A stretch of 33,600 bases of DNA from contig NZ_CP026530.1 in the NCBI RefSeq assembly GCF_004006315.1, positions 1,757,501-1,791,100 of the forward strand, read 5' to 3'. The notes below the pieces were generated by a model. The model searched no databases, had not been told where the DNA came from, and saw nothing but the letters and a program-made list of their open reading frames with translations. A program made the translations under genes and the position numbers. This DNA comes from Nautilia sp. PV-1. GTDB lineage: Bacteria; Campylobacterota; Campylobacteria; Campylobacterales; Nautiliaceae. Of the stretch, positions 17,056 to 20,566 are shown one piece after another (position 1 is the first letter of the stretch; each line of letters begins with the position of its first letter).

Positions 17056-18885
17056 TTACATAAAGTAAACGATCGGAACGATAGTAGGATATTTTTTCGT
17101 TTTTCTAAATACGTGTTTTCTGATTACGTTTCTAAGCTCGTTTTCGAAAATTCTCGTTTTTTCGTATACGTAATCTTTTGCATGATCTATATAATTGATT
17201 AAAATATCTTCCATTTCTTTTGCGAAATTTTTGTCTTCTTTGTCTGCAATAATACCGTATGTCGTTACACGAGGGCGTGAAAGCAGTTTTTTCTTCTGTT
17301 TGTCAACCTGCGCAACGATCATTATAATACCCTCATTTGCAAGTTTCTGTCTGTCTAGCACTATATCCGTTTCGATTTTTTCATTTATCTGATTATCGAT
17401 ATAAATTTTACCCACTTTTACGGATTTGACTTTTCTGACTCTTTTAGGAGTAATTTCCCACTGCTCTCCATCTTCCATAACGAATATGTTATTTTCATCC
17501 ATCCCAAGGCTCATGGCTGTTTCTCTGTGTTTCATCAGGTGATTGTATTCACCGTGCACAGGGAAAAAGTATTTAGGTTTTACAAGTCTTAGCATAAGTT
17601 TTTGTTCTTCCTGAGCCGCATGACCCGAAACGTGGATTTCGCTGAAATCCTGATACGCAACCTTTGCGCCTTTTTTCATTAAGAAATTGATTAATTGTGA
17701 TACTGTAGGTTCATTACCCGGGATCGCTTTTGCGCTTATTACTATCTGATCGCCTTCTTTAATCTTAACATGTCTGTGTTCGTCTATCGCCATTCTGTAT
17801 AAAGCGCTCATACTTTCACCCTGGCTTCCCGTAGTTACTATTAAAATCTCATGATCTTCATATTTTCCTATTTCATAAGGATCGATAAATATATCGCGAG
17901 GCAGTTTGATATAACCGAGATCCATCGCTACATTCAGGTTCTGCTCCATACTTCTACCGATAATACACACTTTTCTTCCATGTTTAATACCTCTTTCGAT
18001 TGCCTGATATACTCTGTGAATGTTTGAAGAGAATGTTGACATTATCACTCTTCCCTTCGCTTTTAAAAACAGGTCATCAAACGTATTTCCTACTACGCTT
18101 TCACTCGGTGTAATTCCCGGCTTATATGAGTTCGTAGAATCGCTGAAAAGCGCTAATACACCCTTTTCCCCGTAATATGCAAATCTGTGTAAATCAGGCG
18201 CATATCCGTCAATCGGAGTATGGTCTATTTTGAAATCTCCCGTATGTATAAGTGTTCCTACGGGCGTCTGTATTGCCAAAGATGAACTGTCTATAATAGA
18301 GTGCGTCATATGAATCCACTCTATTTTAAAATCTCCTATTTGAATCGGATGGCGTTTTTTAACGCTTCTGAAATAGCTTTTATACTGTAATAATTTATGC
18401 TCTTTAAATTTATTTTCAATCATTGCAAGAGGAAGCGAAGTTCCGTAAATAGGAAACTGCATTTCTTTAAACAGATACGGCACGGCTCCTATATGGTCTT
18501 CATGCCCGTGTGTTATGATAAGACCTTTGATTTTGTGTCTTATTTCTCTTAAATAACTGAAATCGGGAATTAAAATATCCACTCCGTGCATATCTTCATT
18601 CGGAAAACTCATTCCGCAGTCGATTATAATCGCACTGTTTTCCGTTTCAAGAACAGCACAGTTTCCTCCGATTTCGTCTAATCCTCCAAGAGGCGTAAAT
18701 CTAACCCACCCTTTTGTATTGTTGTCTATTTTTGTATGTGAATTAAGTCTCGCCTGTTGAATTTTTTCGTTTTCGTTAAATGCTTTGTTTAAATCTTTGA
18801 ACCAAACAAAGTTTTTCGGATCTGTCTTTTTTTGTTGATAATTTTTTTTAGTTTTAACAACGGCTTTTTGATTTTTTTCTTCCAT
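17056..18885 (-). CDS. rnj: ribonuclease J
   Basis: 5'-3' exonuclease and endonuclease of RNA decay and rRNA maturation, the main RNase of Campylobacterota, which lack RNase E. 609 residues: an N-terminal Lys/Asn-rich extension (1-58), then the metallo-beta-lactamase domain with HGHEDH (126-131), the beta-CASP domain containing MSTFSSNIHR and TTGSQGE, and a C-terminal domain (PKYFFPVHGEYNHL to the end). The extension is typical of Helicobacter-type RNase J. It starts 19 bp after the ksgA stop, so the two make an rRNA-maturation unit. GGAG precedes the ATG. Confidence 0.95.
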   Translation of the reverse strand: MEEKNQKAVVKTKKNYQQKKTDPKNFVWFKDLNKAFNENEKIQQARLNSHTKIDNNTKGWVRFTPLGGLDEIGGNCAVLETENSAIIIDCGMSFPNEDMHGVDILIPDFSYLREIRHKIKGLIITHGHEDHIGAVPYLFKEMQFPIYGTSLPLAMIENKFKEHKLLQYKSYFRSVKKRHPIQIGDFKIEWIHMTHSIIDSSSLAIQTPVGTLIHTGDFKIDHTPIDGYAPDLHRFAYYGEKGVLALFSDSTNSYKPGITPSESVVGNTFDDLFLKAKGRVIMSTFSSNIHRVYQAIERGIKHGRKVCIIGRSMEQNLNVAMDLGYIKLPRDIFIDPYEIGKYEDHEILIVTTGSQGESMSALYRMAIDEHRHVKIKEGDQIVISAKAIPGNEPTVSQLINFLMKKGAKVAYQDFSEIHVSGHAAQEEQKLMLRLVKPKYFFPVHGEYNHLMKHRETAMSLGMDENNIFVMEDGEQWEITPKRVRKVKSVKVGKIYIDNQINEKIETDIVLDRQKLANEGIIMIVAQVDKQKKKLLSRPRVTTYGIIADKEDKNFAKEMEDILINYIDHAKDYVYEKTRIFENELRNVIRKHVFRKTKKYPTIVPIVYFM

Positions 18886-18904: not shown

Positions 18905-19639
18905 CTAGCGGACATTAGAAAAGAGCTGGAAAAAAGTAGAGCCGTCTACCTGGTGAGGCCGTATGCTTTTGGCAAGTCCGAATTTTTCAGGATCAAAATC
19001 CTTATATTTCACGGATAAGTTTTTTCTGAGAGTTTTTCTAGGGTTTGCAAAAGCGACTTTTAAAAATTTTGCAAACTCCTCATTAAAAGAGTTTTCAAAC
19101 TTTTCAAATAAAATCACACTGCTTGTAACCTTGGGCGCAGGAACAAACGCGCCCGGAGGTATATCAAACAGTTTTTTTACTTTAGCTACACTTTGTGCAA
19201 GTATCGCTAAAGATGAGTAATTTTTATCCCCCGCTTTTGCAGAAAACTTATCCGCAACTTCTTTTTGAATAAGTACTAGTATGTTTTTTGCATTTTTATC
19301 TTTTAATGCTTTTAATATTATATTTGTCGCAACGTAATAAGGTAAATTTGCAATCAAATCATACTTTTCATTTTCAAGAGTTTCTTGCCAAAACTCCAAT
19401 ACATCACCACATTTTAATTCAAGATCAGGAAATTTTTCTTTTAAAATTTCACATAAATCTTTATCAATTTCATAAGCTGTTACTCTTCTTTTTTCCAGCA
19501 GCTTTTCTGTTAAATCGCCTAAGCCAGGCCCAATCTCTACTACCAGATTATCGGTGTTGGGCATCGCTTGGACGATTTTATCCAAATAATGTTTATCTTT
19601 TAAAAAATTTTGTCCAAATTTTTTCTTTGCCTTGATTAT
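18905..19639 (-). CDS. rsmA: 16S rRNA dimethyladenosine transferase, apparently with an ATA start
   Basis: Also called KsgA; it dimethylates A1518 and A1519 of 16S rRNA. The Rossmann core shows VVEIGPGLGDLTEKLL (motif I), NLPYYVATNI (catalytic NLPY) and the C-terminal FANPRKTLRKNL. The conserved N-terminus IKAKKKFGQNFLKDKHYLDK is encoded in frame upstream of the only standard start (TTG 19585), and that TTG would delete FGQNFL, needed for SAM binding. No ATG, GTG or TTG lies further upstream in frame. ATA at 19639-19637 sits where homologs have Met, six bases after AAGGA. The start is therefore read as ATA; a base error or mutation is the alternative. Confidence 0.8.
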   Translation of the reverse strand: MIKAKKKFGQNFLKDKHYLDKIVQAMPNTDNLVVEIGPGLGDLTEKLLEKRRVTAYEIDKDLCEILKEKFPDLELKCGDVLEFWQETLENEKYDLIANLPYYVATNIILKALKDKNAKNILVLIQKEVADKFSAKAGDKNYSSLAILAQSVAKVKKLFDIPPGAFVPAPKVTSSVILFEKFENSFNEEFAKFLKVAFANPRKTLRKNLSVKYKDFDPEKFGLAKSIRPHQVDGSTFFQLFSNVR

Positions 19640-19676
19640 ATCATATCCTTTTACTAAATGTAAATAGTTTGATAAA

Positions 19677-19682
19677 ATTATA
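19677..19682 (-). promoter_or_regulatory. -10 box of the ksgA-rnj unit
   Basis: TATAAT on the minus strand. Transcription from about 19670 leaves a leader of about 30 bases with AAGGA (19650-19646) before the proposed ATA start. A second TATAAT (19640-19635) overlaps the start itself and would leave no ribosome binding site. Confidence 0.5.
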
Positions 19683-19689
19683 ACAAAAA

Positions 19690-19780
19690 AGAGGCTGAGA
19701 AACAGCAGCGTTTTAAAAGAAAGAGAAGTTATACATATTCTGACAAATAGGAATAATCGATATTCTGCTTTTCAGCCTCT
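19690..19780. repeat. inverted repeat in the ksgA/hisF spacer
   Basis: AGAGGCTGA (19690-19698) and TCAGCCTCT (19772-19780) are perfect inverted 9-mers flanked by partly complementary CAGCAG and CTGC. They bracket 73 bases with no other structure that I can name. If transcribed towards hisF, the pair would form a long stem-loop ending just before its ribosome binding site. Confidence 0.5.
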
Positions 19781-19801
19781 GCTATTTTATAAAGGATATT
19801 A

Positions 19802-20566
19802 ATGGAATATTTTGCTAAGCGTATAATACCCTGTCTGGATGTAAAAGACGGCAGAGTTGTTAAAGGCGTAAATTTTGTAGGACTTAGAGATGCGGGAGAT
19901 CCTATAGAAGCCGCAATACGATATAATGAAGAAGGAGCGGACGAACTCACCTTTTTAGATATTACCGCCAGCCATGAAGGGCGTAAACCGATAGTAGATA
20001 TCGTAAAAGAAGTCGCGCGTGAAGTTTTTATTCCTTTAACCGTAGGAGGCGGTATAAGCGAACTTAACGACATTTACAATCTATTAAATGTAGGATGTGA
20101 TAAAGTTTCTATAAATTCCGCCGCCGTAAAAAACCCGGCTTTTATTAATGAATCCAGTAAAAGATTCGGCAGCCAGTGTATCGTTGTCGCAATCGATGTA
20201 AAAAAAGTGGCTTCTGACAAATGGCACGTTTTTATAAAAGGCGGAAGAGAAGATACCGGTCTTGACGCTATTCAGTGGGCTAAAGAAGTCATTGACAGAG
20301 GAGCGGGTGAAATACTGTTAACATCAATGGACACCGACGGGACAAAATCAGGCTTTGATATTGAAATAACCGAAAAAATATCAAGACTAGTAAACGTTCC
20401 TGTCATAGCAAGCGGCGGAGCAGGTAAAATGGAACATTTTAAAGACGTATTTGAACATTATGCGGATGCTGCTCTTGCCGCAAGTATTTTCCATTTTAAA
20501 GAAATCGATATTATGGATCTTAAACATTATCTCAATAAAAACAATATAAGCGTAAGGATTAATTAA
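19802..20566 (+). CDS. hisF: imidazole glycerol phosphate synthase cyclase subunit
   Basis: Histidine biosynthesis: converts PRFAR plus ammonia from HisH into imidazole glycerol phosphate and AICAR. 254 residues, a TIM barrel with catalytic Asp11 ([15 protein letters not shown]) and Asp near residue 130 (VVAIDVKK), phosphate loops LTVGGGIS and [15 protein letters not shown] lies before the ATG. It is away from other his genes in this window; the next gene starts directly after its stop. Confidence 0.95.

Follow-up and report, generated by a model that had tools for sequence, protein, structure and literature searches.

A conserved AUA codon is the probable start of ksgA in Nautiliaceae, and AUH starts recur on the same gene elsewhere in Campylobacterota

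The window analyzed here, the final 33.6 kb of the 1.79 Mb single-contig genome of the heat-vent bacterium Nautilia sp. PV-1, carries on its minus strand a ksgA/rsmA gene in which the conserved N-terminus KKFGQNFL is fully encoded, yet no ATG, GTG or TTG precedes it in frame before the open reading frame runs out. At which codon does translation of this gene begin, and does the choice of that codon matter for its regulation? A sequence-only reading of the locus had pointed to an ATA codon and had suggested that a rare start under the control of IF3 could link the amount of the enzyme to the state of the ribosome.

When read from the proposed ATA to the stop codon, the gene (18905..19639, minus) encodes 244 residues. 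The product scores 226.7 bits on the KsgA/RsmA profile TIGR00755 (cut-off 171) over residues 2-241, profile position 1 aligning with residue 2, and it also matches Pfam RrnaAD. It is thus a full-length 16S rRNA A1518/A1519 dimethyltransferase that carries the N-terminal motif KxFGQNFL, of which K-F-G-Q-N-F-L is common to the solved KsgA structures. A search of this genome with RF00177 gave no match to a 16S rRNA gene, which was probably masked. Two neighbors were named from sequence: an rnj-like gene (RNase J) lies directly downstream (17056..18885, minus), and a hisF-like gene (19802..20566, plus) is divergent from ksgA, which therefore needs a promoter of its own between the two. KsgA is 244 aa long in this genus (L003 and L004) versus 253-261 aa in other members of the family, in which the gene continues beyond the equivalent of window positions 18905-18960, where it ends here. 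In L005-L021, codons 236-256 at the 3' end show strong synonymous conservation, possibly because this stretch overlaps the beginning of the rnj-like gene that follows.

The reading frame through the start region (IIKAKKKFGQNF...) runs AAA GGA TAT GAT ATA ATC AAG GCA and on into the lysines and the FGQNF of the motif. The lack of a canonical start noted by the sequence-only reading was borne out: the first in-frame canonical codon is an internal TTG (19583..19585, minus). A Shine-Dalgarno (SD) sequence, AAAGGA (19646..19651, minus), is invariant in 19 distinct genomes of the family, and its AAGGA (19650-19646) ends six bases before the ATA (19637..19639, minus), just as had been described. In a 400-kb portion of this genome, 54 of 70 genes have 5-7 nt between AAGGA or TAAGGA and the start codon, 5-6 nt being commonest. 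At ksgA the corresponding gaps are 6 nt for ATA, 9 nt for the following ATC and 1 nt for an out-of-frame ATG, so that the SD stands at normal spacing to an AUH codon (AUA, AUU or AUC). Further upstream, TGTTATAAT (19677..19685, minus) likely serves the promoter of ksgA as its extended -10 box; the TATAAT box reported earlier is thus present, with a gap to the ATA of 37 nt instead of 38. Two other elements overlap the ATA itself, namely TATGATATAAT (19635..19645, minus), which matches the extended -10 consensus, and the out-of-frame two-codon frame ATG ATA TAA (19636..19644, minus). This start is exceptional in its own genome: among 216 orthologous ORFs compared against two other genomes (G001 and G016), no real protein gene but ksgA lacked a canonical start at its conserved N-terminus. 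The remaining flagged rows were judged by eye to be shadow ORFs, rRNA, or leaders that precede a normal start.

Comparison of the start codon in related genomes, which the sequence-only reading had called for, revealed the same start region in 23 of 23 loci of the family Nautiliaceae (19 distinct sequences, four genera), all of which carry AAAGGATATG[N]TATAATCA. The 19 distinct orthologs, this one and 18 relatives, read AAAGGATATGNTATAATCA, N being the sole variable base. Around the ATA, positions -12 to +6 vary at -2 alone (A8 T2 G3 C6), including an invariant T at -1 and an invariant A at +4, whereas every position from -40 to -13 varies within the family. ATG, GTG and TTG are kept out of the start position throughout this comparison, in several independent genomes, and an ATG at 19639-19637 is excluded for the whole family. 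The 18-mer of the start region is present in the sampled family genomes and almost nowhere else among 397 Campylobacterota genomes. Of the codons in this region, GNT before the ATA varies at its second base, unlike a codon under protein selection, and the following AAG/AAA/AGA and GCA/GCG/GCC vary as codons. Eight relatives have an in-frame TAA or TGA immediately 5' of AAA GGA (L005, L006, L007, L009, L010, L013, L014 and L019), and these stops beside the SD, together with the variability of GNT, place the coding start within a few codons, where the available near-cognate codons are ATA, ATC and AAG. For the same reasons we rejected an N-terminal extension from an upstream start, and the in-frame TTG found just upstream of the SD in L018 and L021 was set aside as a non-start because the SD lies downstream of it. 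A deeper member of the family (L022) and the outgroups use TTG, GTG or ATG, and the ATA aligns with the ATG or TTG of more distant relatives: in L225, ATG ATC AAG GCA is exactly in register with the ATA ATC AAG GCA of the family, in agreement with the earlier claim that ATA holds the position of Met in homologs. Taken together, these comparisons make it very probable that ksgA is translated from an AUA start codon in this family.

The 5' part of the gene is constrained in another way as well. Synonymous sites of codons 1-50 are far more conserved than those of most of the gene, the 3' end excepted, and codons 21-43 (~19580-19501, minus) contain an RNA hairpin that is found in L003-L103 and others, with a 5' arm AAATCGTC C AAGC GAT GCCCAA (19557..19578, minus) and a 3' arm TTGGGC CTG GCTT A GGCGATTT (19512..19533, minus). 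In 91 distinct Campylobacterota sequences 97.1% of the pairs form, compared with 72% when synonymous codons are randomised (maximum 73.7% in 200 draws), and changes on both sides occur in 6 of 18 pairs (62 cells versus 15.3 in shuffled and 0-2 in slid controls). A covariance model recovers the hairpin in 133 of 150 genomes of the phylum and in 38 of 39 genera, a count in which the sequences used for building match by construction; 17 genomes gave no match, and all but one of these come from a single genus (g17, family f2). The hairpin is a covariation-supported RNA element without an Rfam match, as the Rfam 15 search of 19350-19850 gave nothing above the gathering score. It could be a site for KsgA binding or for an RNase, acting on ksgA or on rnj. 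We ruled out an overlapping ORF behind the conserved 5' end, since stops interrupt every other frame.

Absence of a canonical ksgA start is not confined to Nautiliaceae. It was also found in genus g26 of family f8 and in genera g6, g30, g42 and g45 of family f2, which is taken to be Helicobacteraceae. The AUH codon, assigned in these two families from position and SD alone, sits ~5-9 nt after AAGG or GGAG. Within f2 it is AUA, AUU or AUC in g6, AUA or AUU in g30 and g42, and AUC in g45. Examples from outside Nautiliaceae include AAGGAG-AAAGT-ATC (L321), AAGGAG-CTTTTT-ATT (L360), AAGGG-TGTTACT-ATA (L353) and an ATC in L357, and the start region in a genome of f8 (G072) reads AAGGAG-AAAGT-ATC GAG. 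Congeners carry TTG (L339, L345) or ATG (L344, L355, L334, L335) at the corresponding codon. On a tree of 106 KsgA proteins, 44 with AUH and 62 with canonical starts (ATG/GTG/TTG), at least nine changes of start type are needed, an approximate count given that this is a quick tree with some long branches. In family f2, each of the 21 infC genes with a readable start begins with TTG, and most of these genes come from genomes with an AUH ksgA; rpsL starts with GTG in 10 of 10, mostly from other f2 genomes plus four with an AUH ksgA; AUH therefore looks specific to ksgA and does not reflect a general relaxation of start usage. The TTG of infC in f2 is preceded by GAGGTTAGCTTT-like leaders (L433-L495). 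At one locus (L293, G086:C33:95799-96653) the ksgA match is split into two pieces, possibly reflecting a frameshift in addition to the missing canonical start.

Several other readings of the start region have to be weighed against the AUA start. Initiation at the next codon, ATC (19636-19634), which is also non-canonical, is improbable: no family member departs from ATC at this codon, even though ATC is rare among the Ile codons of ksgA (34 of 287), and L321 and L357 appear to use ATC, but a 9-nt gap from the SD stands at the far end of the range, with 4 of 70 genes, the ATA is replaced by ATG or TTG in L225 and others with Ile or Val as the next residue, the base at -1 would be A, and the ATC of codon 22 shows the same invariance, there on account of the hairpin. 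We regard as similarly improbable a role for the out-of-frame ATG (19644-19642), either through a frameshift into ksgA or as a decoy AUG-NUA-UAA minigene competing with the AUA. Here the ATG does not vary, nor does the TAA that lies six bases further on, and in this genome the frame reads AUG AUA UAA, as the lambda bar minigenes do; yet an ATG 1 nt from AAGGA lies outside the range seen in the 70 genes, and the SD is not spaced for initiation there as in a bar-type minigene, the P-site codon NUA varies and so offers no fixed slippery site for a frameshift, and a minigene has no need of the T at -1. That translation begins at the internal TTG (19585) and yields a shortened protein is highly improbable. 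No canonical codon precedes it in frame, but it lacks an SD and is not conserved (TTG 9, TTA 9 and CTA 1 across the family), and a start there would remove KKFGQNFL, which is covered by TIGR00755, RrnaAD and the solved KsgA structures. A sequencing error or decayed gene has nothing in its favor except the missing start and can practically be dismissed, as 19 distinct orthologs agree, the reading frame is intact and the protein is strongly conserved.

Two further readings do not displace the AUA start and carry more weight. TATGNTATAAT, which is invariant in the family except at N, is exactly an extended -10 box, and its conservation could serve transcription from a second, sigma-70 promoter (P2) lying over the ksgA start, a tentative reading that we keep as a genuine minority possibility. 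Within TRTGNTATAAT the N alone is free to vary; TGNTATAAT occurs more often in this genome than its reversed controls do (298 versus 178) and frequently sits 19-45 nt before gene starts, TATGNTATAATC being found once, at ksgA; and the box stands at a leaderless-type spacing before ksgA in outgroup genera (L036, L041, L049). Against it, RNA from P2 would begin inside codon 4 and, while carrying the hairpin, would hold no start codon for full-length KsgA, the internal TTG not being conserved. P2 could nonetheless coexist with the AUA start without competition between them, and use of TATGNTATAAT as a promoter, as a pause signal or its conservation for some other cause are possible alternatives among which we do not choose. 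In the outgroups (L041, L049, L036, L037, L046 and others) a -10 box lies 6-9 nt before the ATG of ksgA, mostly without an SD, and ksgA of several outgroup genera looks leaderless from its sequence, following the arrangement described for leaderless mRNAs of Epsilonproteobacteria (PMC3847290). The other reading, which we hold to be rather unlikely, accepts AUA as the real start and denies it regulatory meaning: few copies of KsgA are needed, so that a weak AUH codon drifts in and persists. In its favor, 62 of the 106 ksgA genes on the tree have a canonical start and switches went both ways, with the at least nine changes mentioned above, and bacteria can generally do without KsgA (PMC2807437). 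However, the ATA is fixed in 19 distinct genomes from four genera while neighboring sites vary freely, drift would be expected to yield reversions to GTG or TTG in so diverse a family, and it would be expected in other genes too, whereas infC and rpsL are free of it.

We favor, with moderate confidence, a deliberate AUH start that keeps ksgA expression low and sensitive to initiation fidelity. AUH starts have recurred separately on ksgA while canonical starts were kept on infC and rpsL, and to judge from these sequences they look selected. A short leader would be transcribed from the promoter 37 nt upstream of the ATA, with the SD at normal spacing; IF3 and the P-site of the mature 30S subunit would reject non-AUG codons, so that the AUH codon would initiate poorly and the level of KsgA would stay low, and synthesis would rise whenever start-codon scrutiny is relaxed. 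With T at -1 and A at +4 invariant, the mRNA could pair more extensively with the anticodon loop of the initiator tRNA; extended pairing of mRNA with this loop has reportedly been described (Esposito 2003 EMBO J, as cited in PMC9841429). Dimethylation of A1518 and A1519 by KsgA would support IF3 binding and initiation fidelity, and a shortage of KsgA would then lead to more AUH initiation and more KsgA, a negative feedback like that of E. coli infC, which has an AUU start and is autoregulated by IF3. By analogy, feedback through KsgA's own rRNA methylation is a plausible extension that we place at somewhat less than an even chance. Loss of RsmA methylation lowers initiation fidelity and may act via weaker IF3 binding (PMC7949028), the GTC start of Streptomyces sigR is repressed by IF3 (PMC5472188), and the S. 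aureus genes infC, ccpN and citZ have AUA starts, with reporters giving ~10-30% of AUG (PMC13009471). The proposal of the sequence-only reading that IF3 control ties ksgA to ribosome state may thus be called partly supported, since it fits this published work on non-AUG starts and RsmA, and the convergent AUH starts on the same gene strengthen it. That reading had not remarked on the invariant TATGNTATAAT over the start or on the hairpin within the gene.

Several points weigh against the selected, fidelity-sensitive start. A gene whose product is required in small quantity may simply tolerate AUH; an AUA start alone leaves the invariant TATG (-6 to -3) and the ATC of codon 2 unexplained; the canonical majority on the tree makes the trait non-obligatory; and infC starts with an ordinary ATG in the Nautiliaceae loci read, which means that the classical infC AUU loop is absent there. 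More speculatively, the ksgA mRNA of Campylobacterota might be a self-regulating sensor of 30S maturity in which the AUH codon is read mainly by ribosomes of relaxed scrutiny, these being under-methylated or IF3-poor 30S subunits, and in which the hairpin provides a second control, together with the start or on rnj, for instance as a binding site for KsgA or an RNase. We consider this combined reading possible but doubtful.

To our knowledge, few bacterial genes depend on AUA, AUU or AUC starts, and a literature search, with subscription papers mostly outside its reach, turned up neither a non-canonical start nor a hairpin described for ksgA. The repeated, gene-specific evolution of AUH on an enzyme of 30S maturation offers a clear and testable case in which start-codon choice would couple ribosome assembly to initiation fidelity. 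There is also a practical consequence: annotation limited to ATG, GTG and TTG is bound to shorten ksgA or misplace its start in many genomes.

Among known systems, infC (AUU in E. coli, AUA in S. aureus) is like ksgA a translation-factor-related gene with an AUH codon behind an SD and a product that bears on start-codon scrutiny. KsgA differs in being an rRNA methylase whose effect on scrutiny would be indirect, and infC itself starts with ATG in Nautiliaceae and TTG in family f2. Streptomyces sigR shares with ksgA a non-canonical start kept in relatives (PMC5472188), but it encodes a regulatory sigma factor and has no part in ribosome biogenesis, and repression by IF3 was shown for sigR, whereas for ksgA it is proposed from sequence. 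The AUA of ccpN and the AUU of cvfC1, whose reporters likewise reach ~10-30% of AUG, are conserved AUH codons behind a good SD (PMC13009471); there the SD is strong and extended, in contrast to the plain AAAGGA of ksgA, and no feedback logic was proposed. E. coli pcnB, for which an AUU start is described (Binns and Masters 2002, as cited in PMC13009471), resembles the ksgA proposal as a low-level enzyme with a weak start, while being, in that account, a poly(A) polymerase from another lineage. Finally, the leaderless mRNAs of Epsilonproteobacteria (PMC3847290) are a parallel to ksgA in several outgroup genera, where the start codon follows closely on a -10 box; the ksgA of Nautiliaceae differs from them in having an SD, and no AUG is expected at the 5' end of an RNA that begins from its box.
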